NCBI GenBank assembly: GCA_025200525.1
Contig: CM045760.1
Span: forward strand, 47,387,932 to 47,451,931
Source of the DNA: Camellia lanceoleosa
Taxonomy: Eukaryota > Streptophyta > Magnoliopsida > Ericales > Theaceae
Direction of reading: 5' to 3'
DNA: 64,000 nt
Shown here: positions 13,243 through 64,000 of the stretch, piece by piece
How positions within the stretch are numbered: position 1 is the first letter of the stretch
Layout of the letters: every line of letters starts with the position of its first letter
The notes under the pieces: generated by a model
Seen by the model: the letters and a program-made list of their open reading frames with translations, nothing else
Databases searched by the model: none
Told to the model about the DNA's origin: nothing
Position numbers and translations under genes: made by a program

Positions 13243-14515
13243 TGTAGCACGTCCGCGGGGGGACCTCGGCTACAGTTCGGACTCCTTTTTGTGTCGCGGT
13301 TCTAAATCTGAACCAAAGAGTCCAAATCCGGCAAATCGTTTGAGAAAACAGATTTTTGAAAAAGTAGTGCCAAACATGGACTGCTTTGCCAGATTACAGA
13401 GTCGCCACCTAAATATTTTTAATTGGGAAATTTAGGAAACCCTGACTCAGTGCCGAAGGCCACACGTCCGTCATCACCAAAGTGGTCTTGGCTCGGGAGC
13501 TTGGGTACGATAGGGGAAGGTCAGCTATGAGCACCCCCTTTCGCCCGGTTCGAAAACCGGCCTCTACTAACCATGATATCCGTTTTTAAAAACTTTATGC
13601 GTTCTTATTCCGGTTATTAACCTAGAATTACTATGTGATGCGCACAACACAAAAGTATAGACCAGATCGCCTAACTTGGAAGCAAACATTGCATATCTGT
13701 TTTGTCTCGAAAAACGTGTTAGATTTTGCTACTCGCAAGTAGGCTAAAATACGGATTTCAACGAGTTGTTCCAACTCAGGCAATCCAACCTCTACCCACA
13801 GGCATTCAAACAGTTTATCACATAAGCAACTAGCCGCACGGTAAACCTACTGTCATGCTAACATTCACACGCATGCGATATGCTAAAGCGTAAATACTTA
13901 CATCGTACTCCGTGCCAAAACAAAAAGCTAGTTAGCAAACATGCATGACCTAGTTCATGTTAAGATGACTAATGCGACGCATACAGAGTGCAATTAGACA
14001 GGCTCGGCTATCCAAAACATGGCATGTGAAATGCACGAGTAACACATATTCAATTTTGGAATTGAAAATACAATGCAGTTTGTATGATGTACCGAGCCCG
14101 GTGTATGTAAACAAATGCATGAATGCACGCATGCATTGCATAAGGTATGCTAAAATAGACGTGCCCTAATCTACCACCGAAAGCGGGTAAATAAAAGGGT
14201 TAGAAAGAAATGGGGGTTGGAAGACATACACCCACTCACGCACACTTATTACATTTTTGCCCTCGCTCGGAGGGGCCGGAAGAATATACAAATTAACTAC
14301 ACAAGCTAATTAAATATTACAAATTGACTAAATTAATTAAACAGATTAATTAATCTAATTAAAGCAATAAAACGCCTCGGGATGAGGGCCGGATGCAGTG
14401 CATGCTCGGGACTGGCTCGGAATCGCACTGCCATGCATGGATTGCCTCTGTTTTCCCTGCTCTCCTCCTCTGAAGACTGCCAAAGTCTCAGGGATGCCTC
14501 TCTGGACATTGGGGG

Positions 14516-14628
14516 TCACCACCGGCTGGGGTAGAACACCACCGGATGAAGGAGGTGAGCACCGGCACAAAATGAAGCTATCGGCTATCAATTGACTGCC
14601 GGTCGGCACTAAATACTACCGGCCGGCA
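14516..14628 (+). promoter_or_regulatory. CCGGC/GCCGAC module, inner LTR copy (antisense orientation), element A 3' LTR
   Basis: Order on the plus strand is CACCACCGGCTGG, CACCACCGG, GCACCGGCAC, then TGCCGGTCGGCA and CCGGCCGGCA. This orientation is the same as the PMD promoter of A and opposite to the U3 module of this LTR. Confidence 0.55.
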
Positions 14629-15950
14629 ATATGTTCCTGCAGAACCTGCAACTCACAGCAGCAGAGGGCAAAACTTGCATGGCAATGTAATTCAAGGTAT
14701 TTATGCACCAAACACACTCCCTATCATGTCATTGACTCAAGGGGGCATGTGCCTCGGTTCCCGGACCACCAATCGCGCATTTCCATGCGTGATGGCTCGG
14801 AGAACCAAGCATGCAACTTTGATTTCAAATGCAATACGATGCAAACAAGCAAACAAGGGTGTTAAACCTCTATCGTGACTTGATCAAGAGGCCTAACATG
14901 CATGCCAATGTGGTGCATTCCTAGACATGGCAACTAGCATGTAATAGGGCAATACAATGCAAACCTAAGTAAGCACACAAGGCAAGCATGCAAACCACAT
15001 GGAGGATGGGCTTAGACATGAATTAGGCAACTCAAAAGGGCCCAAAATCAGTGGCCAAAGTGCCTAGAAATAGAGACTAAACACGCACACACATGCACAT
15101 GTTAAGGTCCAAACCCAAGGCATACAAAGTCAACTCTCATGCACACTTAAGAGACACAAACATGGGCTAATAGCATGCATGAAAAGCTCTGAAATCCATG
15201 TTAAGCATGATGCCAAAACATGCAATGAAGCAAGCCAAATATACAACAAATGGCCCAAGTCTTGAAACAAGCCATGAAGGCTTAAACCAAGGGCAAGTCC
15301 ACCAAGCCTCACAAGGCTAAGGGGACTCAAAACAGGTCACAAGCAGACCTAAACAAAGCCTAAGGAGCACCTAGATGGCATCTAAGAGGCTCAAGTACAA
15401 AGGCATGCAACATGACCAAAACATGGAGCATTCAACACATGCTTTTAAAGCATTAAAGAAGCAACTAAAGCATGCATACAAGCACACCAAAAAGTCTGAA
15501 ATAACATGCTAGATGGTTCCAAACTATCAAAAATGAAGTAAGCATGGCATGCTATACACTCATACTCTCAAGGCCAACAAGCCAAATGCAAAGGAGCCAC
15601 ATAATGCATGATGGGATAGACCCAAATGGCTATGGACAGAGTTAAATCATGGAAAAATAAGTACACAAGCTTCACAAACACAAGTCTAAAACATGTTAGA
15701 AGCTAAGGCTAACAAGCTAGTCATGTTAAGGCAATGTTAAGGCATTACAAAGTAACTATGCAAATCATGCAAAGAGTACTAAAACCAACTTGAAATCATG
15801 TTATAACATGGCAATATAAGCATGGAAAACAAGTCAAACATGCTCAACACACACTCAAGCATGGTGCTCCATAAGAGGCAAAACTTGCCCTTTTCAAGGA
15901 CATCAAGGAGAGGGGGTGGCCCTCCCCTTTTGGAGACTTCAAGGCATGCT

Positions 15951-15988
15951 CTTCACCACTGAAATCCCTCAAGATTTCAGTGGTGAAG
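15951..15988. repeat. LTR hairpin (A 3' LTR)
   Basis: Perfect 16-bp arms CTTCACCACTGAAATC and complement with a 6-nt loop CCTCAA. The loop differs from the L1 loop (CTTT). Confidence 0.9.
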
Positions 15989-16496
15989 AGATCCTATCAC
16001 CAAAATCTCGGATCTCAACCAAAATGGCACAAAAGGGGCCCTTTTCAAGGCCTAAAGGGGGTCAAACTTCCCCAAACCACAAAACACTCTTAATATACAA
16101 TAAAGAGGGTCAAAAATCAGAACTTTTATGTGCCAAACACTAAGCCCAAAAACTGTTTTAAAGCAAGCAAAAAGAAGGTGCAAGAATGGGGTAAAAAGAG
16201 GGTTAGTGTCTTACCCTTGAAGCCTCTTCAACAAAGATGATGTATTGACTTCCTTAAGCACCAAACCAGCTCCAAAGCTTCCAAAATAAACCTCTGGACC
16301 CTTAAGAACCAAAGGAAGGTGAAACACTAGGTGTTGATGGGCAATAGTATGACCAAAACACCTAGTGTACTAAATAAGCAAGAAAAGAGAGAGATAAGAT
16401 AGATATATTATCTAACCTAAAACCAGAGCTTGGTTTCTCTCTAGAATGGCTGAAACCTCTCAAGAATCCAACCCTTGAGTCAAGAGAAGAGAGTTC

Positions 16497-16506
16497 TCTT
16501 GTATAG
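16497..16506 (-). promoter_or_regulatory. Putative LTR TATA box (A 3' LTR)
   Basis: The minus strand reads TTGCCTATACAAGAG, aligned with TTGCCTATAAGAGG in the B/C LTRs. It lies downstream of the CCGGC module, as expected for the U3 promoter. Confidence 0.45.
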
Positions 16507-16660
16507 GCAACCAAACTTACAAGTTAAGTTACCAAACAAGCTCATCCCTCCATACACGTGTATCGAGGGGAGAAAAAGGCTGAACAGCTGTGAGAAAATA
16601 TCTCAAAAAGCAACTGAACAGTGCCCAGCTGGCAAAGAGTGTCACTTGACAAAATTTAGT

Positions 16661-16750
16661 GCTGACCGGCACAAAATAATGCCGACCGGCACAATATAGT
16701 GCCGGTGGCAACCACAGCCAGCCGGTGGCCTCTAGCCACAGCCGGTGGTG
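16661..16750 (-). promoter_or_regulatory. CCGGC/GCCGAC module, U3 copy (A 3' LTR)
   Basis: Carries GCTGACCGGCAC, GCCGACCGGCAC, GCCGGTGGCAACC and GCCGGTGGCC, repeated with about 20-bp spacing upstream of the TATA-like site. GCCGAC is the core of the plant DRE/CRT element; that link is inference. Confidence 0.5.
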
Positions 16751-16949
16751 TGTGGGAATGCCTCACAAAGCATTCCCTGCCCCTCTAAGGCAAAACACAG
16801 GTGTCTGGTGCAAAACCGGACACAACACGGTCAAGTTCGGGGGTCCTGAGGCAAGGCGTGCGAGCCGAGAACTCCGGGAACTCCGAACGAACACACACAC
16901 ATGGATGATCACCGAGTGTTCAAACGGTGACGTCCAAGTCTTGAGGACG

Positions 16950-17051
16950 GTCAAAAATGGGGTGTCTACAGTTGCCCCTCTTTGACAGAACTTGGAAGTC
17001 GTAATAATGACGGGAGTGAATGTCAAAGCCCAGAGACGACCCATTTTTGAC
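16950..17051 (-). promoter_or_regulatory. PPT/LTR junction of A within nested inverted repeats
   Basis: PPT on the minus strand at 16986-16971 (ends AGAGGGGCAAC). Outer arms 16950-16967 (in the LTR) and 17034-17051 (in the 3' UTR) match at 16 of 18 positions. Inner arms CTTTGACA and TGTCAAAG flank the PPT. L1 and B show the same layout. Confidence 0.75.
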
Positions 17052-18290: not shown

Positions 18291-18819
18291 TGGAAATGGA
18301 TATCTACAGAAAATGCATGACATATGCACTATACTACAATGATATGCATGACAAATGCATGTTTTTTTTTTGTTTTTGTTTGTTTTTAAATTTTGTAATG
18401 CATGACATATGCAATATTATTGATGCATGAAATGCATGTGTTTTTTTTGTTTTTGTGTTTTTTTTTGAAAATGCATGACATATGCAATAGTATTAATGAT
18501 GCATGAGATGCATGTTGCAATGGCTGCGATTGCAGTTTTCCCTATTCTACCAACGGGGTGATATACTAGGTTGGTTCAGTATCCAGAATTGAGGCGTAAA
18601 CACGCCGCCTCAACCTATGGGGCTTCCATACAGATTTCAAGCCGAGGGTACACCCCCTGGGTATTTAAACCAGACTTTAGTCTCGGAAATTCCGAACCTT
18701 TGCGTTCTAGGCATAAGCCGTTTAAACTCTAGTTTTCACCGTCCCCCTTGGTCTCCTAGGAACTCACCACAAACACAAACGGGTGGCTTTACCAGACCAC
18801 CGAAAGTCGTTCGAGCACG

Positions 18820-19690
18820 ACAAACACCGAAGGAATTGCACCTTCAGAGGATTTAAGGTCTCCTAGACCGTGCGTGTTTAAGGTCTCGCCCGGACCAGTG
18901 GGCAATCGAGATCTTGCGCGGATGCAAGCAGGCGGATGAGGCAGCGTGTCTCAAAAGATGGAAAATGGAGTGCAATGGGGGTGTCGTAAGCAGTAGCGAT
19001 GAAATGCATGCCGAATGCAATGAGGGGTAACTTTAATGCACCGAAGGTCTTGCTCCTCCCGAGGATTTAAGGTCTCCTAGACCGTGCGTGTTTAAGGTCT
19101 CGCCAGACCCGTACGGGTGCATGGTTTCAAAATGCGCGGCAATGCGCGGCTGCCGAGATGATGATACATGATAATGCATGCGCAAAAGGTTTTGCACCTT
19201 CGAAGGATTTAAGGTCTCCTAGACCGCGCGTGTTTAAGGTCTCGCCAGACCGGTATGGGGCAACCATGCGAATGTGACACGCGTGCCACAAGGGGTGCAG
19301 AACAATGCAAATGAGAATGAAATGAACCATGATGAGGCGCGCATACCTCATTGGTGGAAAATGGAATGCAAAACGAGGCACGCGTACCTCGAAATGCGAT
19401 GAAATGCGAAATGAGGCACACGTACCTCGTTTGATGGAAAATGAAATGCAAAACGAGGCACGCGTACCTCGAAATGCGACGAACTGCGAAATGAGGCACA
19501 CGTACCTCATTTGATGGAAAATGAAGTGCAAAACGAGGCGTACGTGCCTCGAGATGCAATGAAATGCGAAATGAATGTAACGAGGTGCACCTTAATGCAC
19601 CGAAGGTCTTGCACCTCCCGAGGATTTAAGGTCTCCTGGACCGCGCGTGTTTTTGGTCCCGCCGGACCGTGCGTGTTTTCGGTCCCGCCG
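18820..19690. repeat. Dispersed AGGATTTAAGGTCTCC repeats
   Basis: Four copies (about 18845, 19070, 19200 and 19618) of a 60-70-bp block: CCGAGGATTTAAGGTCTCCT, AGACCG, GCGTGTTTAAGGTCTCGCC. Each contains the inverted pair GGTCTCCTAGACC. Spacing is about 130-400 bp, the gap at 19320-19560 being filled by another minisatellite. Confidence 0.8.
19320..19560. repeat. GAGGCACGCGTACCTC minisatellite (A)
   Basis: Five to six units of roughly 40 bp with a quasi-palindrome GAGGCACRCGTACCTC followed by AAATGCGATGAAATGC or TGGAAAATGAAATGC. The same palindrome is the core of the large arrays in B and C. Confidence 0.85.
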
Positions 19691-19714
19691 GACCCGCTGG
19701 CAAAATGAAATGCA

Positions 19715-20165
19715 CATGAGGCACGCGTACCTCATTGGATGGAGAATGAAATGAAAAACGAAGTACGTGAGGTAGTACACCTCACGTGACTCAAGGTGAA
19801 ATGCAAAATGAAGCACGTGAGGTAGTACACCCCACGTGAATCAAGGTGAAATGCGAAATGAAGTACGTGAGGTAGTACACCTCACGTGGCTCAAAATGGA
19901 ATGCAAAATGAAGCACGTGAGGTAGTACACCCCACGTGACTCAAAATGAAATGCAAAATGAAGCACGTGAGGTAGTACACCCCACGTGAATCAAGGTGAA
20001 ATGCAAAATGAAGCACGTGGGGTAGTACACCCCACGTGAATCAAAATGAAATGCGAAATGAAGCACGTGAGGTAGCACACCGCACGTGAATCAAAATGAG
20101 ATGCAAAATGAAGCACGTGAGGTAGCACACCGCACGTGAATCAAAATGAGATGCAAGATGAGAGA
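19715..20165. repeat. 50-bp CACGTG minisatellite (A)
   Basis: About eight units of 50 bp, each with CACGTGAGGT - AGTACACC - CCACGTG arms, that is a 9-10-bp inverted repeat with a CACGTG (G-box) at each end, followed by AATCAAAATGAAATGC-type spacer. Confidence 0.9.
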
Positions 20166-20961: not shown

Positions 20962-23900
20962 ATGGCCGATGATATTCCACATGTCGGGACTCCCCCGGAC
21001 CACGAGATGGATCCCGGGGTCGAGCTCCTGCCACTGAGCGAGCGCCCATTCGACCCGGCGACTTACCAGCCGGCCATCCACGTGCTTCCGCCAGACGGAC
21101 TCCGCCACTTCCGCGGCTTCGACAGAGTTTTGGACCCGAGCCTGGCTGCGAGCCGGCCACTCATTTGTCCTCTGCCGCTTTCGAGGTAACACCCTTATCT
21201 TTGCTTTATTTTCTGTAATGTAGGATTTCCTGTCAACTGCCGTAGCTAACTGAACCCATTACTTGTTTAGTTCTGATGCACTGTACTGTAGTTAATTGTA
21301 GACAAATTCATAACTGACATCTGTGATGTACCAACGCACATGCACACACACTGTACTAGTCGGAATCACCCCCATATACACGGCACACCGTATTTCACTG
21401 CAAATTCACCGACACCCGGTACTTATTTGAATCTGAAAGCATATTGTATGCCGTATTTAACCTGAACCACACAAAGCACGTTGACACATCATACGTTGTA
21501 GTTCACCTACTGGCACATTATAACCCGATATCTGCTTGAGTCTGAGAAATGTACACACATGTACCGTATCTGTATGCTGACCCTCACAAACACACTGACA
21601 CATCACAGGCCGTAGTCCACCGCAGTACACTGAAACCCGATATCTGCTTGAATCTGAAAAATGTGCACACATGCACCGTGTTTATACAGATTTGTACCGA
21701 CTGCATATCTTCATATGGCTTTGCAATTTCTTGACTACAGGGAGACTCCCATACTCTCCGCGGGTATGGGAACGTTTTGGCTCGCGATTGGTACGCTGAG
21801 CTGCCTGACGCCGTTAGCCGCATTGTAGATCGGGCCGGCTTTGGCACCTTCTGCAGGGGACTCTCCAGGCTCTCTGCTTGCAGACCTCTTCTTGCCGCCC
21901 TGGCAGAGAGGTGGTGGGACACCACCGATTCTTTTCACTTATCAGCGACCGGGGACATGACGATGACCCCTTTCGACTTCTCGATGCTCACTGGCATCGG
22001 GGTGGGGGGTGATCCGATCCCCTTTGATACAGACATGGACGAGTGGATTGCCGCTCAGGTTCACTTACTCGGCGAGGCGCCGCCACTTGCTCGTCCAGGG
22101 TTCGTCCGCTACTCCTGGTTCGAGTGCGATTTAGTCGCGGCCGTCTTTGGTGGATCAACTCGATGACCCAGAGGCGGCGAAGATATGCACGCGGCTTTCT
22201 CATGTTTTTGCTGGGGACCACCCTGTTTGCCGACCGGGCGAACACAGTGCCCCTCTGCCTGCTCAGCGCCTTGGTGGACGTCGAGAGGATTGTGTAGTAT
22301 GACTGGGGGGGCGCGGCTTTGGCCACCCTTTACGGTTATATGAGCTCAGTCTCTTGTGGCAGTGGACAGCTGCTAGGAGGCTACTGGCGAGCCTGGGAGG
22401 TATGTCTTCTTCTCTGCTTTTCATTTACATTACAGACTTTACGTACTCTGTACCTTTGCACCTGCTTGTTATGCATATCTGTACCCAGACACACATATAC
22501 GCTTTATCTTGTTGTACCTTCGTTCTGCTTGTACACCTGCTCAACACAATACACAACCTGACTCTGTTATTTACGCTTTACGCATCTGCTTGATCGATAG
22601 TCATCTTGACGTCTGTTTTGCACTGTGGGTGTCGCCTACTTCCCAGACTAGAGCGATCTGGGAGGCGGAGACCCTCTGGTCCCCTTCTTTCGCCCGTTCA
22701 CGATGGGCGATGTGTCCGAGACTCGGGACACTTTTAGCTTCTTCCGTCGTTTCTTGACACCACCACCCCATCGAGGTATGTTTTACTTACATCCGTTTTA
22801 AGCTTCGCTTTCATGCGTACATTTCTATATCGATAGATAATCAATCGTATTTCATTTGGTCACTGGCGGTAGTGGGCTCCACTCCCGTGATGATCTGAGA
22901 TCGGTATCGGCGCCATCGAGACCTCGCGCTACGGATTCTCTGGAGGCGATGCGGTCTGTCGAACTGGTACTGGTGGCGTTTCATCGCCGAACCCTAGGAT
23001 TGCGGGAAGCGAATAGTTCGATCCATCCTCCCGGCGCATGAGGGAGGCGAGGGTACAACTTCCAGCAGATGGAGGACTATACCCTTGGCTGGGCCGTGGA
23101 CATTGACGCTGACAGGGGCGAGGGCGACTATTCAGAGTACGTCCGGACCTTCATCATGCGGCCTCTGAGCAGGGGCTCCCGGGCTGATCGGCGAGACTGC
23201 TGCTAGCGGCCCGGCAGAGACGAGGCGAGGCGGGGCCGTCCAGAGGGCTCGAGCTCGCGGGAGGAGTCTGAGAGGGGACGAGGCTGGCCCGCTCTACCTA
23301 CTATGTTGACTTATAGGGGGCAGAGTGGGGAGACCTACCAGATCCCTTTTGCTCCTCCTCCGGCTGGTCACGAGTTGGCCGGCATTCCCGACTTGCCTCC
23401 GGTATGTATTACTTTATTTCTGCAGTTTGCATTGTTATTTCATTTCAGTTCATTCAGATATCCCACAGAATACTGATGTATTTAATACTTTTGCAGGCTT
23501 CCTCCGAGTATACCCGTCAGTCTGTGGAGTTGAATGCCTCCCTGCTGGGGATGCTGCAGCGGAATCTCGACGCCTTGGCCGTCTACAGCCTGCCGGTATG
23601 TTTTACTAACCACAGTCTCGAATCATACTCTGTTTCGCACAATCTGCTACACTGCACAAAAATCTGATAAAATGCTCACGGCTTTCATACATTGTACTCA
23701 TACTGCGCATTACTGTCGATAAAGCGCTCACGGCATTCGCTGACATCAGCCATACTGCATTACGCATTGATAAAGCGCTCACGGCTTTCATACATTGTAC
23801 TCATACACCGTGCATTGTCTTGATAAAGCGCTCACGGCATTCGCTGACATCAGACTCATACATCGCATTCTGCATTGATAAAGCGCTCACGGCTTTCACA

Positions 23901-24291
23901 CTTATACTCATACACTCGCATTCTACATTGATAAAGCGCTCCGCAGTTTTTTCTTACTCTACTCGCGTGCGCTCTACATTGATAAAGCGCTCGACGTGTT
24001 TGTTCTTTGTATTTTCAGCCTCCTTTCCCGATCCCTCCAGTGGGTGACACTGTTCCAGCTGGGCCTCCCGTCTCAACTTGGGATGGCAGGATATTCCCTC
24101 GTACCAGAGGGGGACGTGGTCACGAGGGGAGCAGCTCACGAGCTCCAGTTCCAGGAGACGGTGAGTCGGAGGCGGGGACTGAGTCATTTGCGGAGGAGGC
24201 CGGGGATAGCTCGGGCTCGGGCTCCGATAGTGACGGCTCCGACGACGCTTTTGTGCTTTTGCCCAGGAAGAGGGCGAGGACAGATCCTTAG
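20962..24291 (+). pseudogene. Plant mobile domain (PMD) gene, copy A, six exons, antisense to its element, decayed
   Basis: PMD proteins are plant proteins related to MAIN/MAIL1 and to transposon-borne copies; a nuclear role is inferred. Exons by GT/AG and comparison with B: 20962-21185, 21741-22399, about 22622-22775, about 22858-23401, 23497-23595, 24019-24291. Exon 2 holds the domain: RWWDTTDSFHLSATGDMTMT, then FDFSMLTGIGVGGDPIPFD, ARGFLMFLLGTTLFADRANT, YDWGGAALATLYGY. Exon 6 ends in an acidic Ser-rich tail and PRKRARTDP, a possible nuclear signal. Damage: one base lost near 21138; exon 2 frameshifts and a TAG in place of a codon after VDVERIV; the exon 3 and 4 acceptors changed; exon 4 badly broken. 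The start ATG (MADDIP) is chosen because B shares it. Not functional as read. Confidence 0.8.
23655..23995. repeat. Minisatellite in PMD intron 5 (copy A)
   Basis: About six units of 50-60 bp beginning GATAAAGCGCTCACGG and containing CATACATTGTACTCATAC or TTCGCTGACATCAG. It lies between exon 5 and exon 6. The matching intron of B and C holds a related but different repeat. Confidence 0.85.
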
Positions 24292-27200
24292 GCATGAGAC
24301 CTGTTGCTGATGATGATGATTTTGTTGCTTCTTTTCTTTATTTCTTTTCTTGTACTTTTCTCTTTTTGGTAGATAGAGTACTATGTACTGCCGCAGGCAG
24401 GTTTTTGCTTTCCTCAAACTATGTATTCGAAAAAAATGATATGAAACGAACTTTTGCTTGAAAAGAATGTTACATTTGTCTATCTTTGCGTATTTCATAC
24501 TTCGCACTGCACTGCATCATTCTACACCTCAAATGTAAATGACATTGATCTGTTGTCTGACAATTGAACACTTGCACTGTAATAATCAAATAACCAATCA
24601 ACTAAACAGCAAAACAACTTATACGAACCACTGCTCAAAAACTGGGTTCACAACCCATACTCTGCTAAGGACTAATCTGCTGGGGATTGATCTGCATTTA
24701 GCGCAACTCAAGATTTGGTTCATTACGCACCTGACAAACTACGAGCAGATAGCCCTAATCGATGAGACAGATCACAAAGCCCGACGGTTGCAGTTGAAAC
24801 ACACTCGGAGGTCCCAAATTTTTCCCTTCCTTCTCCTACTTTGCACGGATGTAGAGAATGGTAAAGCATTCTGAGCACAAGCGATTACCTTTTTGGAAGA
24901 AGACGGGTTTTCAACCGGGGTGTCGAGCCTACCACATAACACGACGAGACAGACTCGAACAGAGAAGCAAAAGGCACACATCCTATCACAACGAGACACG
25001 TTCGGAAAAGACTTCAAGGCCAAAATTGAGATCGACAAATCAAAAGACACGACACACAGACGTGTTTAAAAGAAGAGACCTCAAATTTCGAGGAGCCAGT
25101 TCCTCCGGGTATACCTCCCACCCTTTCTGATTTGTGATACTCGCATCGCTCGGCCCTCAGGCTCGGTTTTTCTCTCAAAAAACCCTTTTCTCACTTTTCT
25201 TTCAACTTACTCCTCTCTATTCTTTATTCTCTCGTTTTGCATCCCTCCCCAGGGTGGATGACAGATGAATAGGAAGTTGTGGGTTCACGCCCGATATAGC
25301 TAGCTTGCAACCACTCCTTCTGGCGGATAAAGTGTCTCTCGGACAATCAGATTAACGGGGGGAAGACAGAGGACCCGACTCAATCGTGCCCCTAGTTCGT
25401 CATTTTGACCATTTTTTGTTTTCTTCCTAAAACAGTTTTGACCAAAATGAGAGTTAGATTAACACACTTATTCGATTTTTGATTTGAAAATCATGCGAGT
25501 CAGGCTGTGAGCACTGAAGAGTTTCCTTTTGTTGGGTCCAAACATGGTCCAATTTTGGAAGATGAGATAGTTTTCGAGAAAATAAATCAACCTCAGTAAA
25601 AATTTTCAAAAACTATTTTTGCAGACAATCAATGCTCAACGAGCGCGGAACTTACCATCGAGATGCGCAACCTCGGATCGGAGGTAATGGAAAAATTGCC
25701 CCTGGCTTAAAAAGGGGGGGAAGGCAACGGAAAGTTGCCCCTGGTTTGAACGGTAACTCAGGGCAGCTTATTGCAATGCATGGCAACGGAAAGTTGCCCC
25801 TTGTTTAGATGGTGCCGCGGCATGTTGTAAGCCAGTCTTTGTTGATGACTATCAGACCCTCGGACGCGGAGGAGTCGAAGATGGTTTGAATCAATATATG
25901 GACACAGTCACCCGGAAGGTGTTGGTGGTTTGGCTTCAAGAGGAAGTTAATCACGCGGCTCCGGGTTACTGCAATCAAGATATTGGATTCGGAGTAGACG
26001 AAAATGATCAAAACCATGACATGGCCTGAGACGCTATGGAAGCGTTGGGGGCTGGACTTCAAGATGAAGTTGCCTACGTATCCCAAACATGGGAATCAAG
26101 CCTTACGTAGTTCCGGTTAAGGTACTCTCGGGTATTTTAACCTTCACTGTTTAGGCTCTAACTTTTGCCAAGGTGCCCAATGCGGGTTTTCGACCTTGCT
26201 AGCTTTGTTCTTTCTTTTTCTTATTTTCTATTCTTTTCATTCTTTTCTTTTTTTTTCTCTCTTTTTTTTGCATTTTCATCTTTTATTATTATTTTTGCAT
26301 TTTCTTTTCTCTTTTGTATTTTTTTTTTTTTTTTTTTTTTTGCTCTAACTTTTGCCTGGGCCGCCCTTCCGGGTTTTCAGCCCAGCGAGCCTCTCAAAGG
26401 GTAAAAGTGTAGCAAGTCCATGCCAAATGATTTTGAGATTGAAGCCTCTCCGTATCCAGGAGAGTGGCCATCGCGCTGATTTGCAGAAAGGTCCATCACA
26501 GTTACTTCTCGAGCTTGGCTTGGTGGGATCTGATCTCCTCGATCTAATTTTGATGCCTCTTGCTCGAGGGCTGCCCCAAAATGAGCCACACAGGCATTTC
26601 ATGGTACTGATCACTTTGAACGGATCTAGTTTGTGACGGATGAATTGAAGCTTGAGACCGAGAGCGATCCCGGGCTGCACAATCTCAAGAGCGGTTCCAC
26701 ACAGGTCTTCGCAAGATTGCACAAAATGCTTTGTTTTTTTTGAAAGTTTTCAAGAAGGCGACGAATCGCTCGTGCCGAAGACAGTGTGGAACCAATCTGG
26801 ATCAAAGCTAGGGTCCTTCTCAGTACTCACACTGACAAGCATGATTTCACTCATTAAGGGCTTAGCATGCCTCTCTTTCTCTCAAAATGGCCAAAATTTT
26901 GCGAAAACCCGAGAGATTCCTTCCTCTTTGTTTTTATCACCGCAGTGTTCAAAAGGGTTTTATGAAAAACTTAGGTCAAAACAATAATTTTTAAGGCACA
27001 AAAGAGCAGACGGAATGTGTTACCACCTCATTCGAGTTCTCTGGCACAACTAGCCCAATGCCATCAATAAACAAGGAAACATGGTAGCCACGGCTGTTTC
27101 ATTCAGATTTTCCCGGGTGTAAACTGGCTCCACAGCAGAGGGAGACCCAAAAAGAAAGCAGTGAAATAATTACAAAACGGTGCTTGAGGTAACAACCCCG

Positions 27201-29173: not shown

Positions 29174-29177
29174 GAAA

Positions 29178-49100: not shown

Positions 49101-49530
49101 TTGCATTCTTATGAGGCATGCGTGTCTCATTTGTTTCATTTGCATCATTTGTATTATTTTACATTCCGTGTGACATGTGTGTCACACTTACATCATTTTG
49201 CATTCTTATGAGGCATGCGTGTCTCATTTGTTTCATTTGCATCATTTGCATCATTTTCCATTCCGTGTGGCATGCGTGTCACACTTGCTTCGTTTATCAT
49301 TCCCATTGGCAGGTGTGCCTCATTTGCATTGGCCCGTGCGCCTCATTTCCATTGGCACGTGTGCCTCACTTTCATCGGCATGCGTGTCTCATTTCCATGG
49401 GCATGTGTGCCCCATTTGCATTGGCATGTGTGCCTCAGTTCCATTGGCATGCGTGTCACATTTTCGTTAGCATGCGTGTTGTCATTTGCATTTAGCATGC
49501 GTGCCTCATTTGCATTGTCATGCATGTTGC
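49101..49530. repeat. Diverged minisatellite tail (GTGTGACATGTGTGTCACAC and GGCATGTGTGCCTC units)
   Basis: Includes a duplicated approximately 100-bp block (49070-49165 and 49168-49262) and about ten irregular units of 20-25 bp with TTGGCATGTGTGCCTCATT. It fades into unique 3' UTR at about 49530. Confidence 0.85.
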
Positions 49531-49942
49531 TAACGACATTGTACCTGTTAAGTTTATTTTCTTTTCAGGCACGATATTGTATGTACGGTTCATTTGAGGC
49601 CGGTGCAACCGGACGAGCCGCACAGGTATTGTATCCTCCGAGTGAGACGCTTTGAGAATTGCATAATTCCCTTACATCCTTTCTGCATTGTAGTGTAGTT
49701 TGGTGTATGCTAGCTTAAAACTGTTGCATGTGTGCTTCGTTACAGCTTTCTTTGCATGATCATAAGTTATGCTCGGCTTCTTGCATTTTCGGTTGCATTT
49801 TGCCCCTGCCTTCGGGCGCATACCTTGTTTGTCTTGCATGTTTGCCCAAGTCTTTGGCCTTGTCAAAAATGGGTCGTCTCTGGGCTTTGACATTCACTCC
49901 CTTCATTGTTATGACTTCCGAGTTCTGTCAAAGAGGGGCAAC
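49531..49942 (+). other. Conserved 3' UTR end and PPT of internal B
   Basis: Contains the CACGATATTGTATGTACGG and GGCCGGTGCAACCGG block, and the PPT AAAGAGGGGCAAC (49930-49942) directly before LTR2. Outer inverted arms 49862-49879 and 49946-49963 and inner arms 49885-49892 and 49926-49933 enclose the PPT. Confidence 0.75.
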
Positions 49943-52900
49943 TGTAGACATCCCATTTTTGACCGTCCTCGAGACTTGGACGTCACCGCTTGAACACTTG
50001 GTGATTATCCATGTTTGTGATTGTTTGGAGTTCCCGGAGTTCTCGGCCACGCGCCCTGTCTCAGGATCTCTGAACTCGACTGTTTTGTGTCTGGTTTTGC
50101 ACCAAACACTTGTGTTTTGCCTTTGTTAAGGCAGTGAATGCCTTGTGAGGCATCCCCACACACCACCGGCAGTTGCTAGAGGCCACCGGCTGGTTTTTGT
50201 TGCCACCGGCAATATATGTTGCCGGTCGGCACTCTTTATTGCCGGTCGGCAGTCATTTTTGTCAAAATGACATTTTTGGCCAGCCGACTACTCTTCATCT
50301 GCTTTTTCAGATATTTTAGGACAGCTGTTTGGCATTTTGTTCCCCTCCATACACATGTATGGAAGGATGCTCTTCTTGTTAGCTTTCTTGACAAGCTTTA
50401 CAAGATTGGTTGCCTATAAGAGGAGCCCTCCTCTCTTGGCATTAGGGTTAGATTTTTAGAGAGAAAAACATTGCTAGAAGCTCTGGTTCTAGGGTTAGAA
50501 CTCATATACATTCTATCTCTATCTATTCCTCTTTTGAGTGTTCTAGGTTTTTTTGTTCATAGTATTGCATACAAACACCTACCATTACACCTTTCCTTGG
50601 CTATTGAGGTTCTAAGGGCTTATTTTCAGAGTTTTGGGGCTGGTTTAAGCTCAAGGAGGCAGCTGGTCCTCCCTTTGTGAAGAAGGTCAACAAGGGTAAG
50701 AAACTAGTCCTTTTTACCCCATTTTTGCATCCTATTTCTACCTATCTTAGAGCTGTTTTTGTGTTTAGTGTATAACATAAAAAAGTTCTGTTTTTAGGCC
50801 CTCTTGATTGTTTGTTAAGAGTGTTTTGTGGTTTGGGTGTGTTTGACCACCCTTAGGTCTTGAAAGGCCTCATTTTGTGCTATTTTGTGCAAGTTTCGAG
50901 ACTTTGGTGTTTGGGCCTCGTCACCACTGAAATCTTGAGGGATTTCAGTGGTGGAGATGGTGCCTTGAAGTCTCCAAAAGGGGAGGGCCACCCCCTCTCC
51001 TTGTTGTCCTTGAAAGGGACCATTTTTGGTCTCTTAAGGAAGCCTTTGTTCAAGTGTGTGTTGAGCATGCCATGATTGTTTTTCATGCTTATTATGCCAT
51101 AATATAACATGGTTTTAGGTTGGTTTTGGTACACCATGCATGCTTAGCATACCTACCATGTAATGCCTTGTAATTGCCTTAATATGCCTTAGGTTGTTAG
51201 CCTTTGTTTGAGCATGTTCTAGGCATAGCCTTGTGAATGTTTTGTGCTTATTTTGCCATGCTTTAGGTCTGTCCATAGTTGTTTGGATCGATTTTGGCAT
51301 GCTTAGTATAGCTCATTTGCATTTGTGGCTTGTCGGGCTTGTATGCCTCAAGTATGTGAATGTGTAGCATGTGTTGATTGCATCATTTTGGTGGTTTGGA
51401 ACCATCCAACATGTAATTTCAGTCCCTTTGGCATGCTCATACGCTTGCCTTAGTTGCCTCTTTGTTGCTTTGAGGGCATGTGTTGTATGCCCTATGTTTT
51501 GACCATTGTGCATGCCTTTGAATTTGAGCCACTTAGATGCCATCTAAGTAGTCCTTTGGCCTTGTTTTAACATGCTAAAAATCTGTTTTTAGTTGTTTAA
51601 TGCATGCCATGTTTGTTATGCTAAATGTGCTTCAAAGCTTCATGACTTGCCTCAAGTACTTGGACCATGCTTGCATGCTTATGCTTGTCTCATTTGGGTT
51701 GGTTTGGCACCACATTTCGACATGATTTTAAAGCTTTTCATTCCATGCCAATTGTCCATGTTTAGCCTCTTTCAAGTGTGTTTGAGAGTTGCTTGTTTAA
51801 TGCTTAGGTTTGTGCCTTAACATGTGTATGCGCGTGTGTGTGCTTAGCCTTCATATTTGGGCACTTTGGCCACTGTTTTAGGCCTATTTAGAGTTGCTTA
51901 ATTCATGTTTAAGTCCCTCTTTTATTTGTTTTGCATGCTTGCCTTGCATGCTTGCTTGTATGTTTGTATAAGTGCCTTGCATTGCCCATATTGCATGCTA
52001 GCCAACATGTCTAGGATTGCATTGCATTGTGCATTCTTGGCCTCTTGAAATGAGTGTGATAGAGGTTAGGCTTCCTTGTGTGATTATATGGTTTGCATTT
52101 CATTTGAAATTGAAGTGCACACTTGATTCTTTAGGCCATCATGCATGGAAATGCGTGATTGGTGGCCCGAGAATCGAGGCACATCCTCCCTTGAGTCGCA
52201 AACATGATAGGGGGCATGATTGGTGCATACATAGCTTGAATAGCATTGCCATGCAAGATTCTGTCCTCTGCTGCTGTGAGTTGCAGGTTCTGCAGGCATT
52301 CTTTGCCGACCGGCAACATATTGTGCCGGCCGGCAGTAAATCAACAGCCGATGGATGAATTTTGTGCTGGTGACCACAATTCACTGCCGGTGGTAATTCT
52401 ATTTAGCGGTGCTATTCTCCGGTGTCGAAGAAGCATCCTTGAGACTTTGGCGGTCTTCAGAGGAGCAAAGCGAGGAAAAGCGAGCAAACTATGCATGGCA
52501 AGGCGATTCCAAAGCAAGTCCCGAGCATGCGCTGCATCTGACCCGCTTCCCGAGGGCTTTACTGTTTTAATTAGATTAATTAATTTGTTTAGTTAATTTA
52601 ATTAATTTGTAATATTTAATTAGCTTGTTTAGTTAATTTAATATCTGTATTATTATTTTGGTCCCTCCGAGCGAGGGCAAATCTGTAATAAGCGTGTGTG
52701 AGTGGTGTGCATGTCTTCCAACCCCCACTTCTTTCTTCCCTTTTATTTACCAGCTTATGATGGTAGATTAGGGCACGTTTATTTTAGCATACCTTATGCA
52801 ATGCATGCGTGCATCCATACATTTGTCTCACATGCACCGGGCTCGGTACATCATACAAACCGCATTGTATCTTCAAATCTAACTTGAATACGTGTACTGA

Positions 52901-53710
52901 ATGATTGCATTTCACATGCCATTTTTAGGGTTAGCCAAGCCTATCCTAATCACATTCTGTATGCGATGCATTAGTCACTCTAACATGAACTAGGGACATG
53001 CATGTTTGCTAACTAGTTTATTGTTTTGGCACGGAGTACGATGTAAGTATTTATGCTTTAGCATCTCGCATGCGTGTGAATGTTAACATGACAGCATGAT
53101 TACCATGCTGCTAAATGCTTATATGAAATAAACTGTTTGAATGCCTGTGGGTGGAGGTTGGATTGTTTGAGTTGGAAAAACTCGTTGAAATATGTGTTTT
53201 AGCCTACTTGCGAGTAGCAAAATTCCAAAGCCTTTTCAAAACGAACGGATATGCAATGCTTACTTCCAAATTAGGCAATCTAGTCTATACTTGTTTGCCA
53301 TGCGCATAACATAGTAATTCTAGGCTAATAACCGGAATAAGAACACGTAATGTTTTCAAAATCGGATATCACGGTTAGTAGAGGCCGGTCTTCGGACCGG
53401 GCGAAAGGGGGTGCTCATAGCTGACCTTCCTCGATCGTACCCAAGCTCCCGAGCCAAGACAACTTTGGTGATGACGGATACGTGGCCTTTGGCACCGAGT
53501 CAGGGTTTCCTAAATTTTCCATTTTTTTCAAAATATTTAGGTGGCGACTCTGTATCTGGCAAAGTAGTCCCTGTTTGGCATTTCTTTTCAAAAAACAATA
53601 TGTTTTTCTTCAAAACGATTCGCCAGAGTTGGACTCTTTGGTTCAGATTAAGAACCGCAACAAACAAAAAGGGGAGTCCGAACAGTAGCACCGAGGTCCC
53701 ACGCGCGCTG
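49943..53710 (+). mobile_element. LTR2 of the B/C array (shared, apparently recombinant)
   Basis: About 3768 bp, TGTAGACATCCC to about 53710. Landmarks: CCGGC modules 50161-50250 and 52304-52410 (inverted), TATA-like 50413-50422, hairpin about 50922-50956 (arms restored relative to LTR1). To about 51940 it differs from LTR1 at roughly 1.7 percent of positions; beyond that it is nearly identical outside lesion clusters. The last bases before the PBS are damaged. Confidence 0.88.
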
Positions 53711-53714
53711 ATTC

Positions 53715-54432: not shown

Positions 54433-55431
54433 ATGACACAGAATTCAGAAGAGATCGTGGTCATGACGGCCGCATTGAGTCAAGGAATCACCCCGTAGGG
54501 TGAGGCTAATATTGATATGCCGCATCCGCCCAGGTCGCCTGCTGCACACCTAATTTGGACCCCTTAACTATATCAGGCTCGCGAGCCTACTACATTTGAA
54601 CTAATGGGAATGATTGGTGATCTTCAAAGATCGGTGGCGGATCTCGCCTATGGGATGTCTGCTTCGCCACCAGCCGCACCATATGCTGGAGGCTTTATAC
54701 CCCAGGAGCCCCCACTATTGGGATGAATAGTAATTGAACTCAGCCAACCGGAGATGGCCTCCAGCTATGGCAACGACACATCAACCCAAGTTCTAGATCA
54801 GGCTGAGGCCAGAGACAAAGGCAAGATGAGGGTAGATGCCGACCCTATCGAACAACTGCTGTGGGCAGTGGAGGCTTTGAAAGCCGGGGGAATGAACAAG
54901 CAACAGATATCTGCAGCTGTGTCGAAAGCTGTGGAGGATGCTTTCCCCACTCCGCTTGAGGGCAGTTCCAGTCAATCAGAGAATCGGGATAGGCCCCGTC
55001 ATGCCAAAACAGTTCTTCCCGCTCCCAACCTTGCATCCGGAAAGGATCAGAAATCCAAGGCCGCACCCGCCGATCCGTTCGCTAGTGCATCTAGCAAGAG
55101 TGCTCAGGCTCCAAAGTACCTGCCTCGGGGGCGCAGGGTCTTCCATGCCTTCTACATGCCATTGTCCAAGGCACTTCAAATCCTTGCCGAGAGGGGACAC
55201 CTTAAACCCCTGGAGCCTCGGCCTCCCCCGAAGAATCTCCCTGCTACTCATGACCCCGCTCAGTACTGTGCGTACCACCAGCAGACTGGTCATGCTACTG
55301 ATAATTGCTTCCGCCTCCGTCATGAGGTACAGGATTTGATTGACAATGAGGTAATCCTCCCCCCCACCTCAGCAAAGTACGTCACCACCCAGTTGTTGGA
55401 TTTTGAGGACACAGACATTGCGAGTATGTAG
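54433..55431 (+). pseudogene. Gag-derived zinc-knuckle ORF, copy C
   Basis: Same three early stops as copy B, then an uninterrupted 225-codon stretch from 54754 (MASSYGNDTSTQVLDQ) to 55431. In that stretch: LLWAVEALKAGGMNKQQIS (35-53), a basic Ser-rich region (70-120), PRGRRVFHAFYMPLSKALQI (124-143), knuckle C172-x2-H175-x4-H180-x4-C185, LIDNEVILPP, acidic C-terminus. This is the most complete knuckle module in the window. The Gag core is absent. If an internal start were used, a 25-kDa RNA-binding protein is conceivable; no sequence signal shows that it is. Confidence 0.8.
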
Positions 55432-58562: not shown

Positions 58563-61500
58563 TCAATACATCTGGTCCTCTTCACGGACGAAGGTCGAGG
58601 CGTCATCAACAGGGGCACCACCAGGGGCATCGCCGCCTGAGCTCGAGTCCGAGCCATCACCGGTCTCCTCCCTCTCTCTCTCTGCCTCAGACTCGTTATC
58701 ATCCGGGCTGGAGCCCATTGCTCCCGACATGAGTGCGCCCTCCTCTGGTGCGGAGATATACTCTGCCATCCCGGGTAGAAATGAGAGGTCCAGTCGGAGC
58801 GCCACCCACCGGAGGAATCGGGAAGGAAGGCTGAAAAGCAAGAAAGGCGAATGCATCAGAATACTGTAAGCAGTGAATCAGTACAAAATACAGTGTATGA
58901 ATAAAGTGTGTGTATGCCGTGAGCAGTGAATCAGTGCAAAATAAAGTGTATGAGTACAGTGTATGTATACTGTGAGCAGTGAATCAGTGCAGAATACAGT
59001 GTGTGAGTACAGTGTATCAGATGCCGTGAGCAGTTTATCAGATATTGCGATTATGCATCAGATTATGTAAAGCAGTTTGTATGTGGTTTGAGGCTGTGGT
59101 CAGGAAGAACATACCAGAATGCTGTAGAGGGCTAGGAGGTCGAATGTCCGCTGTAGCGTCCCTATCATGGAGGCATTCATCTCCAATGACTGCCGGGTGT
59201 ACCCGGAAGATGCCTGCAAAAGTATCAGATGCATCAGTATTCTGTGGAATATCAAATAAACTGAAATGAAATGACTATACAAAAACGCAGTAACGCATAC
59301 CGGAGGCAAGTCGGGGACACCGACAAGCTCGTGATCAGCCGGTGGAGGAGCAAAGGGGATCTGGTAGGTCGCCCCATCCTGCCCTCGGAAAGTCAATGAA
59401 GCGGGCAGAACAGGCCAACCGGACCCCCGCCCTCGCTGAAATCCACCCTTGCCATGGACTCGAGCCCTCCTCAGCGCTCCCCCTCCAGCCCCTCCTGCTC
59501 CCGCTCCAGCCGCTGGTGCCGCAGGTCTCTCTCTCTTTGCTCGGTGGCCGCCGCTCAGAGGTCGCATGATGAAGGTCCGGACGTACTCCGAGTAGTCGCC
59601 CTCGCCTCTGAAGTCGTCTGCCTCCCAGCCAATGGTGTAGTCCGCCATCAGCTCAGCAGTGAACCTCTCAGTATCCCGCATGTGCTCAGGAGGGTGCACC
59701 GGGACTATCTGCTTCGGTAAACCCAAGGTCTGACGCAAGAAACGCTCACCCAGGTACCAAGCCCGACAGACCGGGCCCTCGAGCAGAATCCGATAATGTG
59801 AGGTCTCATCGGCACCGGCGAATCGATCCCGCATCATCGCTGGCAGTGGAGCCCACGGCCGCCAGGTGATCTGAAATTGAAATACAGTTTGTTACCTACT
59901 GATATTGCAAATATACAATGGAAAGACGAAGCTTAAATTAACTGCAAGTAAAACATACCTCGGCAGGGGTGATGGTGTCGAAGTAGTGGCGGAAGAAGCT
60001 GAATGTCTCCCGCGGCCTCCGAGTGCATCTCCCGTCAAAGCGGCGAAAAAGGGCGACGGAGGGTCTTTGCATCGAATGCAGAGCGAGCCTAGGAAAGTAG
60101 CCATGAACCCCACAACTGCAAGATAAATACTAGTGCATTTATCAGATAAAGCTGAATACAGAACAAAAGGCAAAAATAGCAAAGCCGTGTGTTGTGCAGT
60201 GTATTGTGCGAGTGTCTGATGTGGCGATATCTGACAAGTGTAAAGCAGAGTATGTGTGTGCCGTGTGTATGCAGTATCTGACAATTGGCGGACTACGATT
60301 GTGTGCGGTGTCGAGTACGTAAAATATAGAATGAAATGAAAGCGAGAAAAAATGTACCTCCCAAACACGCTAGTAACCCCGAAACAGCTGTCATTGCGGC
60401 GAAGCTCATATACCCATAAAAGTGGCGAGCGGCGCCACCCGATCATAATGTAATATGTCACAGCGTCCACAGTCTGTTGAGAAAGCGAGAAACCTTGTGT
60501 TCGCCCGGTCGGCGAAGATGGTCATCCCAAACAGGAATATAAGGAAGCCGCGTGCGTATCTCTCCACGGCCTCTGGGGTCATCGGGGCTGCATCGACGAG
60601 GAGGGCCTGGACCCGGAACTACACCTCGAACCAGGAGTATCGAACGAAGCCGGGACGCGCGAGAGGCGGTGCCGCGCCAAGCAAGTAGACCTGAGCCGCG
60701 GTCCACTCATCCATATCAATGTCAAAGGGGATCGGATCACCCCCTACCCCGATGCTGGTGAGCATCGAGAAATGTAAGGGGTCATCGTCATGTCCCCGGT
60801 CGCAGACAAATGAAACGAATCGGTGGTGTCCCACCACCTCTCCACCAAAGTGGCAAGGAGAGGTCTGCAAGTTGTAAGCCGGGAGAGTCCCTGAGAATCG
60901 CCAAAAGCGGCACAGTCCCTGTCTGACGAGCGTGTCGGGAAGCTCGGCGTACCACTCGCGTGCGACAGTGTTCCCATACCCGCGCTTGGTATGGGAGACT
61001 CCCTGTTTTCAAACAAATCATTGCGAAGTCATATAAAATGTCCAGCTTTGAGGTAACAGTAAATCAATGCAAATTTGGCATGCGTGCAAGTTTATCGATT
61101 CAAGCAGATCTGGTGCGGTGTGCTTCTGATGAACTACAACGTGTGATGTGTCAGCGTGTTTGAGTGGTTCGGGCAAATTTGGCATGCGTGCAAGTTTATC
61201 GAGTCAAGCAGATCTGGGGTGCGGTGTGCTTCTGATGAACTGGCGTGTGATGTGTCAGCGTGTTTGAGTAGTTCATTGCAAATTTGGCATGCGTGCAAGT
61301 TTATCGATTCAAAGCGGTCTGAAGTGCGGTGTGCTTTTAGTGAACTACAAGCGTGTGATGCGTCGGCGTGTTTGTGTGGCTCGGTGCAAATGTGGCATGC
61401 GTGCAAGTTTTCGGATGCAAGCAATTATCGGTGTCGGTGTTTGCGGTGAAATACGGTGTGTGCCGTGGTTTGAGTGGTTCGAGGCTAGTGCGGTGTGTGC

Positions 61501-61872
61501 GCGTGTGAGTCTTAAAGATGTCGATTCGCGAATCGTTTGTAATCAACTACAATATCTGATGTATCGATGTATCGGCACTAGCGATTAAAGCATGTCGATT
61601 ATGGCAATTGGCGGTTTAAAGCATCCTACATTGCGAAAGTAAAGCGAGAAAAAGGTTACCTCGGCGCCGGAGGATAGGTGGGAAACGAGCTCACGTGAGC
61701 TCGGGATCCAACGCCATGTCGAAGCTCTGGCTGGCGTAGTCCGTCGGGTGTGACGTGAATCGCCGGCGGTAGGTCGCCGAGTCGAGCAGGCGCTTCGCTC
61801 AAAGGGAGGAGCTTCGACCTCGGGATCCATCTCGTGATCAGGGAGTCCCCGTCTTGAATGTAAATCGGCCAT
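58563..61872 (-). pseudogene. PMD gene, copy C, six exons, antisense to its element
   Basis: Start codon 61872 (MAD, then damaged). Exon 1 about 61872-61660, exon 2 about 61010-60357, exon 3 about 60112-59958, exon 4 59870-59301 (190 codons, open, same as B), exon 5 59213-59115 (99 nt, as in A), exon 6 58830-58563. It shares with B the one-base loss in exon 2 before FSMLTSIGVGGDPIPFD, showing common descent. Exons 1 to 3 carry many extra small deletions not in B, most of them at CCGG, CAG or CTG. The exon 6 tail is acidic (SPDDNESEAEREREETGDGS) in one frame, parallel to the acidic tail of copy A. Confidence 0.8.
61070..61500. repeat. Minisatellite in PMD intron 1 (copy C)
   Basis: Counterpart of 45780-46240 with the same four units, each shortened by recurrent losses (for example ATCAGATT to ATCGATT). 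Confidence 0.8.
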
Positions 61873-62203
61873 GTCAAGAGATGAGAAAATGGTTGGAGAA
61901 TGAAAATCGAATTGAATCTGAAGAGTCAACCGAAAAGTCAACCCGGGAAGGTGAAAAATGGCGGAAAGGTCGGGATGGGAAAAAGGCGAAACTCGAGAGA
62001 AACTTCGAGGGAATGAGCCTCAAAAAGGCGGAAATGGCAAAGGATGTCTTTGAAATGAAATTTCAATCGGTCAAAAATGTTGAAACGCAATAAACTTCGC
62101 GAATCAAAGCGATATAACGGGTGTAAAAGCGAGAAAATGGAGTGATCAAGGAAGGAAAAGAACTCTAGAGAGAGAGTGTGATTTTTGAAAGGAGAAGTGA
62201 AAG

Positions 62204-62368
62204 AATAGGGTTTAGAAACCCTATTTTAAAAGACCGAGGTGAAAAGTCGAATCTGCGACTTCGACAACTTTTGCGGTCGACAAAATTTTGTGCGGCGGCG
62301 AATATTGTGCCGATGGAATTCTTTTCTAGCGGTGGATGGCGGTGGCCTCCTAACTTGACGGTGGTGTA
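62204..62368 (-). promoter_or_regulatory. Putative promoter of PMD gene copy C
   Basis: Same layout as copy B, but nearly every CCGG reads CGG. The AATAGGGTTT / AAACCCTATT palindrome (62204-62227) is intact. Confidence 0.5.
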
Positions 62369-62814
62369 CCCGCAGCCTTGTTTAGGCAATATGAGTGGTT
62401 TTTGGTCATCATAGCTCGAGAAAGTGCAAGAAAGTGCATCTCCGATGCTCAACCGGCTTCCGTTTTGACCTCGGACCGTGTCTTCTGTGCGTGGCACTCA
62501 AATTCATGCAATGTTGTATCCTTTTGTATCCTTTTGCCTTTTAAAAGATTTAAAAGTTGCCTCGCGTGCGTTGCATGCATTTATCACGTTGTCTGGTGCG
62601 TTGCGTCGCGTCGTCATGCACATCCCTCATGCATTGTCATGCATTTTATTACAAGCGTTGTCATGCATTGTCATGCACCTTAATACATATGTCACCTCGC
62701 ACATCATTCGTGTTGTCGTTGCCCCGCACATCATTTGTGTTGCCGTGCATCTCCTTGTTTTGCATTATCATGCATTTCAAAAGGAAAAACGTCGTTGTCG
62801 CGCATTCGAAATAC

Positions 62815-63170
62815 ACTTGCATTGTTTTATATTTAGGTGTGGCATCGTGTCACACTTGCATTATTTACATTTCGTGGCATCGTGTCACACTTGCATTATT
62901 TACATTTAAATGTGGCATCGTGTCACACTTGCATTATTTTACATTTAGGTGTGGCATCGTGTCACACTTGCATTGTTTTACATTTCTGTGGCATCGTGTC
63001 ACACTTGCATTGTTTTACATTTCTGTGGCATGCATGTCACACTTGCATTGTTTTATATTTCGTGTGGCATCGTGTCACACTTGCATTGTTTACATTTCGT
63101 GTGGCATGCTTGTCACACTTGCATTGTTCTGCATCTCCGTGTGACATCGTGTCACACTTGGCTGCATTGC
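62815..63170. repeat. 39-bp-type minisatellite of internal C
   Basis: Counterpart of 47583-47940. Most units read GTGTGGCATCGTGTCACAC instead of GTGTGGCATGCGTGTCACAC, so the period drops to about 36-38 bp. Confidence 0.9.
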
Positions 63171-64000
63171 ATCCTTTGAAGGCAGCGTGCCTCATTGGCG
63201 ACATTTTGCATCCTTTGAGGCACGCTACCTCATTGGCAGCATCTTGCATTCCTTTGAGGCACGCGTACCTCATTGGCAGCGTTTTGCATCCTTTGAGGCA
63301 CGCGTACCTTATTGGCAGCATTTTGCATCCTTTGAGGCACGCGTACCTCATTGGCATCACTTTACATCTCCGTGAGGCATGCGTACCTCACTTGCATCAT
63401 TTTTGCATCCTTTGAGGCACGGGTACCTCATTGCCATCATTTTACATCTCCGTGAGGCATCGTACCTCACTTGCATCATTTGCATCCTTTGAGGCAGCGT
63501 CGTCCGCAGCGTCGTCATTGGCATCATTTTACATCTCGTGAGGCATCGTACCTCACTTGCATCATTTGCATCCTTTGAGGCACGCGTACCTCATTGGCAT
63601 CATTTACATCTTCGTGAGGCATCGTACCTCACTTGCATCATTTTGCATCCTTTGAGGCACGCATACCTCATTTACATCATTTTACATCTCCGTGAGGCAT
63701 GCGTACCTCACTTGCATCTTTTTTGCATCCTTTGAGGCACGCGTACCTCATTTACATCATTTTACATCTCCGTGTGGCATGCGTGTCACACTTGGCTTCA
63801 TTTTGCATCCTTTGACGCACGCGTACCTCATTGGCTGCATTTTGCATTCCTTTGAGGCACGCGTACCTCATTGGCAGCGTCTTGCATTCCTTTGAGGCAC
63901 ACGTACCTCATTGGCAGCATTTTGCATCCTTTGAGGCACGCGTACCTCATTGGCATCATCTTGCATTCCTTTGAGGCATGCGTACCTCATTGGCAGCATC
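63171..64000. repeat. 39-41-bp minisatellite of internal C, cut by window end
   Basis: Counterpart of 47941-48785; becomes base-identical to B after about 63660. Confidence 0.95.

Follow-up and report, generated by a model that had tools for sequence, protein, structure and literature searches.

How does a retrotransposon without a copying enzyme come to carry an intron-rich gene in antisense, and does the gene serve it? The question is raised by a 64,000-nucleotide stretch of Camellia lanceoleosa DNA (the window; G000:C3:47387932-47451931 of a 3.0-Gb assembly), in which long terminal repeat (LTR) units A, B and C each carry a plant mobile domain (PMD) gene in antisense. An earlier note on this DNA described them as a non-autonomous LTR retrotransposon family. 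We conclude, with moderate confidence, that the family is of the plant Ty3/gypsy type, that it has lacked the Gag capsid and the reverse transcriptase (RT) since its origin, that two of its genes are under selection, that it is probably mobilised in trans, and that its PMD gene may serve the element. Beyond that note, the analysis adds codon-position tests, the deletion of the capsid, and a relative that bears pol and has a similar leader.

Element A is a complete LTR element (13243-32880, minus orientation) with a 5-bp target duplication. Its LTR pair (13243-16970 and about 29178-32880) aligns across 3.7 kb with a Kimura two-parameter (K2P) distance of 0.019 and ends in TGT..ACA. The target duplication, GTACT at 13238-13242 and GTACC at 32881-32885, has one mismatch, which is one later change. 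The flanks of A correspond to neighbouring bases (7597/7593) of a related element, indicating that A inserted into an older relative. The primer binding site (PBS), TGGCGACTC..GGGGA, lies immediately inside the 5' LTR, and the polypurine tract (PPT), AAAGAGGGGCAAC, lies immediately ahead of the 3' LTR. The PBS presumably matches tRNA-Arg. The order in the family is LTR, PBS, Gag-derived open reading frame (ORF) without capsid, spacer, antisense six-exon PMD gene, tandem repeats, PPT and LTR. The features of A are as follows.

13243..16970, minus: 3' LTR; K2P 0.019 to the 5' LTR
16971..16983, minus: PPT AAAGAGGGGCAAC
18309..20161, no strand: tandem-repeat region (units of 77, 80, 26 and 50 bp), upstream of the PMD gene
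20962..21185, plus: PMD exon 1, with a frameshift towards its end relative to B
21741..22400, plus: PMD exon 2, core of the PMD domain, last third frameshifted relative to B; PF10536, 34.8 bits
22624..22776, plus: PMD exon 3, acceptor altered, small deletions
22858..23401, plus: PMD exon 4, acceptor altered, frameshifts
23496..23595, plus: PMD exon 5
24019..24300, plus: PMD exon 6, end approximate; placed by similarity to predicted Camellia PMD proteins, acceptor TTTTCAG
26300..26830, minus: stretch with the remnant of the pol linker preceding RT; weak protein match, E 0.002; its DNA recurs in other copies
27432..28481, minus: Gag-derived ORF without capsid, one internal stop; residues 1-45 then 477-729 of Gag P0134
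29156..29173, minus: PBS TGGCGACTCCACTGGGGA
29178..32880, minus: 5' LTR, inner end approximate; target duplication GTACT/GTACC

In A, B and C alike the PMD gene is divided into six exons by five introns, whose positions correspond among the three copies, as the earlier note had seen. Exon 6 was placed from the matches listed when all 118 PMD relatives were compared with the window. The joined exons of B, with X at the breaks, match PF10536 (E 3e-27; 96.1 bits against a cut-off of 34.9), which confirms the proposed domain. The open part of A exon 2 alone reaches 34.8 bits (1.3e-8), marginally below the cut-off, and the other exon pieces searched singly gave no PMD match in Pfam. Of the 118 relatives listed (7,993 candidates scored), the closest is a PMD protein from Camellia, 81% identical across 98% of the query, and one non-Camellia relative, from Rhododendron molle (34%), was noticed among the matches listed. 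A predicted structure (AlphaFold) of the PMD protein P0001 was set aside (mean predicted local distance difference test score, pLDDT, 33). The gene had been called complete; in the window it is complete in layout only. Relative to B, each of the first four exons of the A gene is frameshifted, and the acceptors of exons 3 and 4 are altered; one frame break and stops in exon 2 are common to B and C.

Aligned with a 738-aa Camellia Gag (P0134), the remnant in A covers residues 1-45 and resumes at 477-729; the capsid is missing. No capsid match was found in A, B, C or the five loci searched elsewhere, and the junction of the deletion, between Gag residues 45 and 477, is visible in A and in two of those five loci (L039 and L040). 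The statement that pol is absent stands for RT: the RT piece of a pol-bearing relative (PF00078 3e-25), used as query, gave a single window match at E 0.37, and no match at E <= 0.001 in the loci retrieved up to that search. It does not stand for the linker preceding RT, the sole part of pol found. This pre-RT linker gives a weak match to the pol-bearing relative in A near 26.6-26.8 kb (E 0.002) and a match of 49% over 55 aa in an older element at 11.0-11.2 kb, and in the 150 places scored of 44,090 candidates the remnant lies in short frames of at most 231 aa. For protease, RNase H and integrase, eight window ORF pieces gave no Pfam match, and no search was made with homologues of these enzymes. 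The spacer is collinear between copies. Two candidates were rejected along the way: a long-frame RNase H match (L063), read as a long interspersed nuclear element (LINE) and not a source of pol, and P0229, in which Gag is fused to integrase, set aside as a chimeric gene model.

The arrangement recurs across the genome. A search with PMD protein P0001 gave 43,025 first-look candidates, which are not a copy count; 72 were scored, and the scored matches listed fall on contigs C1, C2 and C4 to C15 and on five small contigs. The DNA downstream of 15 PMD copies was examined (10 kb each for five and 4 kb each for ten), and 13 of the 15 are collinear with the window elements and pol-less over the part read. 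All five copies of the 10-kb set show the PMD side, spacer, pre-RT linker, Gag remnant, leader and LTR in this order. In the 4-kb set, where up to about 0.8 kb beside the PMD gene was unread, eight of the ten are collinear and pol-less, one of them (L047) with short unmatched stretches; the other two, L049 and L051, are interrupted copies, and no pol frame was seen in either. The copy on C15 has its own LTR pair (97.3% identical) and a perfect 5-bp target duplication, CCTGC, on both sides; for the copy on C10 no left LTR was found within the 3 kb examined. The flanks of another PMD group (L044, L045) did not match the pol-less family.

These copies show that the PMD gene is neither confined to the window nor a separate insertion. 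Since its location is the same in all three units of the window and it adjoins the same spacer in the copies examined elsewhere, we reject its later arrival on its own, as a host gene or in a Mutator-like element (MULE). Element A combines an LTR pair, PBS, PPT and target duplication with no RT found, the attributes of a non-autonomous LTR retrotransposon, and the family proposed in the earlier note holds on these grounds and on the recurring layout. Because unlinked copies share the layout and, where it is visible, the capsid deletion, the comparison supports a common ancestor that already lacked the Gag capsid and the RT of pol.

Is the protein sequence under selection? Differences between the exons of A and B number 94/508, 86/505 and 200/498 at codon positions 1, 2 and 3 (p 7e-21), and within exons 1 and 2 the first two codon positions are conserved. 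The larger PMD set comprises 32 copies, 30 from the search plus A and B; C was excluded from the codon tests. Aligned pieces below 45 or 55% identity were dropped, as were sites covered in too few copies. In exon 2, variants shared by at least two copies fall 71/45/220 at positions 1, 2 and 3, against 72/56/84 for singletons (p 5e-9). The Gag test used 13 of 16 copies, leaving out C and, for want of a usable Gag alignment, L040 and L043 (the L014 and L020 copies). The exon-4 test used 14 of 15 copies, leaving out A. Counts of synonymous/nonsynonymous variants are as follows.

PMD exon 2, 32 copies: shared 211/115, singletons 67/144
PMD, 13 pol-less copies plus A and B: shared 147/48, singletons 63/104
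PMD exon 4, 14 copies: shared 108/68, singletons 70/136
Gag remnant, 13 copies: shared 141/112, singletons 93/180

In the non-coding spacer of 15 copies, variants are flat across the three positions (253/267/250). The pattern supports source lineages under purifying selection, with individual insertions decaying freely. Purifying selection on both the capsid-less Gag piece and the antisense six-exon PMD gene during pol-less diversification is thus supported statistically.

Several observations weigh against this reading. All three PMD copies in the window are broken by frameshifts or stops. The genome copies were selected by protein similarity to PMD; this has no bearing on the Gag test, as Gag played no part in choosing copies. 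When transversions alone are counted, only the 32-copy PMD set keeps a significant contrast between shared variants and singletons (p 0.007); the remaining three sets do not reach significance (p 0.09, 0.32 and 0.16), indicating that recurrent CpG changes may inflate the signal. In two small sets even singletons have a slight excess at third positions (p 0.014 and 0.047). Taken to the limit, the third-position excess would be a mutational artefact, in which recurrent changes at methylated CpG sites mimic shared variants and there is little or no selection on the protein. The contrast does come mostly from transitions. However, singletons of the 32-copy set show little third-position excess (84/212, p 0.06), the spacer is flat, and positions 1 and 2 are conserved between A and B in exons 1 and 2. 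We consider a pure artefact quite improbable.

Distances raise a second difficulty. The distance in the spacer (0.15) is roughly half the mean third-position distance in PMD (0.29) or Gag (0.30), and the correlation between PMD and Gag distances is weak (Spearman 0.32; 13 of 15 copies, L040 and L043 left out). This pattern fits faster, CpG-driven mutation or recombination between lineages, and on its account PMD alleles may have come from pol-bearing elements. In that case the PMD gene would be passive baggage, its constraint earned in pol-bearing elements and its segments passed to the pol-less ones by template switching. The weak correlation and the third-position divergence beyond that of the spacer are compatible with such mosaics. 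Possible pol-bearing sources are also at hand: Ogre elements, which bear pol, often carry PMD (57%, PMC6317226), and a pol-bearing relative exists on C8. Against this stand the layout common to the copies and the capsid-less Gag remnant, which has the same signal (141/112 against 93/180) and which an intact Gag cannot supply whole. We therefore judge the baggage explanation to be on balance unlikely, while allowing it an appreciable chance. It is mainly the third-position and spacer distances and the weak correlation between PMD and Gag that hold our confidence to moderate. The data support protein-level selection in the pol-less lineage, though CpG mutation and recombination may contribute to the signal.

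A protein need not be what matters. The antisense transcript itself might regulate the family, through double-stranded RNA or phased small interfering RNAs (phasiRNAs). There are 175 phasiRNA loci at PMD genes in tea, where the majority of PMD genes have very low expression (PMC10673657). A role of the RNA alone would not conserve amino-acid sequence, however, and we regard this explanation as highly improbable.

If the element lacks RT, who copies it? A search with the Gag of the older element found a pol-bearing relative on C8 (G000:C8:50046201-50052500; L066, L067 and L068). It has an 874-aa open frame, its Gag is 72% identical over residues 90-475, and its leader is 85% identical over about 390 bp to the leaders of A, B and C. 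It carries the pre-RT linker and RT (PF00078 3e-25), and stop codons break its pol within the part examined. On these alignments, pol-bearing kin with the same leader exist. A glycine-rich stretch in a frame ahead of RT resembles a G-patch; it gave no Pfam match.

We propose, then, that the family with its two selected genes moves with help. As other non-autonomous families do, the pol-less element would depend on a helper to package and copy its sense RNA, and the helper would be a pol-bearing relative with the shared 5' leader and a related Gag. Dasheng/RIRE2-type pairs and large retrotransposon derivatives (LARDs) work in this way: a large pol-less element is mobilised by a relative with similar terminal sequences. 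To our knowledge, these elements have been described as non-coding; by that description the Camellia family differs in having kept two genes with a signal of selection. In the packaged sense RNA the spliceosome would meet only the complement of the PMD splice signals. Because the gene is antisense, these signals would be unreadable, and the introns could survive reverse transcription, as the conserved introns suggest. Transcription of the PMD gene would start at a promoter of its own close to the tandem repeats, and the gene product may be a nuclear factor that favours expression of the element or its escape from host silencing, to the benefit preferentially of the encoding copy or family. More specifically, there could be a two-part system, in which pol-bearing elements supply particles and enzymes and pol-less ones supply PMD, or PMD could act so strongly in cis that a parasite without pol still needs a copy of its own; in either form PMD would serve the element, by countering silencing or by aiding expression. 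We put this more specific version forward tentatively and rate it rather unlikely as stated.

Several parts of the arrangement have precedents. Besides Ogre elements, PMD has been reported in Gypsy-type consensuses from ten plant species (PMC9289625), Gypsy-only clades PMD-A1/A2 have been defined (PMC5418596), and antisense ORFs have been published (PMC7264820). As in Ogre/Tat elements with extra PMD ORFs and in the Gypsy-encoded PMD-A clades, the gene here lies inside a Ty3/gypsy element; LTRs of great length, tandem repeats and extensive non-coding DNA have been described for that group (PMC6317226, PMC5418596); the PBS of Ogre is given as tRNA-Arg (PMC9289625). The Camellia family differs in lacking RT and capsid. 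PMD in Gypsy elements is therefore less new than the earlier note implied (PMC6317226, PMC5418596). In Retand, the region from pol to the 3' LTR holds antisense TRP28 ORFs and tandem repeats, and some Retand clusters are non-autonomous (PMC11963269); TRP28 is not PMD, however, and the defective clusters described there lack GAG, GAG and AP, or RH and INT. In the survey of PMC6317226, elements were classified by pol domains and ORFs were counted at 250 codons or more, criteria under which a spliced PMD gene in an element lacking pol could be missed. Our literature search, of titles and abstract openings, revealed no family lacking both pol and capsid that carries an antisense PMD gene with introns and a signal of selection.

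The host offers a comparison. MAIN and MAIL1, Arabidopsis host proteins with the PMD domain, take part in silencing (PMC5418596, PMC7156037), and a review suggests a counter-silencing role for element-borne PMDs (PMC8616336). MAIN and MAIL1 are host genes of the PMD-C clade whose silencing role has been tested, whereas the Camellia PMD is known from sequence alone. If the two-part or the cis-acting version is true, the element PMD would be a counterpart of the host MAIN/MAIL1 pathway. A family that dropped its copying enzyme and kept PMD with a selection signal would make the value of PMD to the element separable from the rest, and its many natural copies for comparison provide a handle on what PMD does for the parasite. 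Surveys by ORF length could miss spliced antisense genes in retrotransposons.

The earlier note counted three elements. A is a complete insertion, as said; B and C are units of one array and have one LTR in common (49943 to about 53.7 kb), at K2P 0.016 to the first LTR of B. In the DNA 3.5-6 kb past the window (L065) the LTR appears again, followed by leader and gag, indicating that B and C belong to a tandem array of at least three units. The array spans 34655-64000 and beyond, and the sequence read stops short of its right end. Its features are as follows.

34655..38427, plus: first LTR of the B unit
38433..38450, plus: PBS of B TGGCGACTCTGCTGGGGA
39291..40153, plus: Gag-derived ORF of B without capsid, interrupted
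43356..46610, minus: PMD gene of B; exons 46610-46382, 45703-45044, 44798-44637, 44548-43979, 43892-43794 and about 43527-43356; frame breaks and stops in exon 2
47581..49522, no strand: tandem repeats of B (39/40-bp and others), upstream of the PMD gene
49930..49942, plus: PPT of B
49943..53706, plus: LTR common to the B and C units, right end approximate; K2P 0.016
54574..55431, plus: Gag-derived ORF of C without capsid
58705..61872, minus: PMD gene of C, broken; exons 61872-61659, 61002-60356, 60115-59959, 59870-59301, 59214-59113 and about 58830-58705
62813..64000, no strand: tandem repeats of C, reaching the window end (the array goes on)

Between B and C (43300-47200 and 58600-62450), runs of hundreds of identical bases alternate with bursts of ~8-10% difference that contain many small gaps. 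The differences are mostly private to C, in places to B. This patchiness suggests uneven assembly (consensus) quality or gene conversion.

The window also holds a related and more diverged element, in which a 476-aa open Gag frame (7138-8568, minus strand) keeps the capsid domain (PF03732 7e-8). The stretch from there down to the tandem repeats is partly collinear with the spacer of the pol-less family, and among the matches listed only one short PMD-protein match (3651-3770) lies nearby. This more diverged element may represent a second non-autonomous family. In the Gag region of the older element interrupted by A, a 206-bp tandem duplication (98% matches) lies at 33346-33763.

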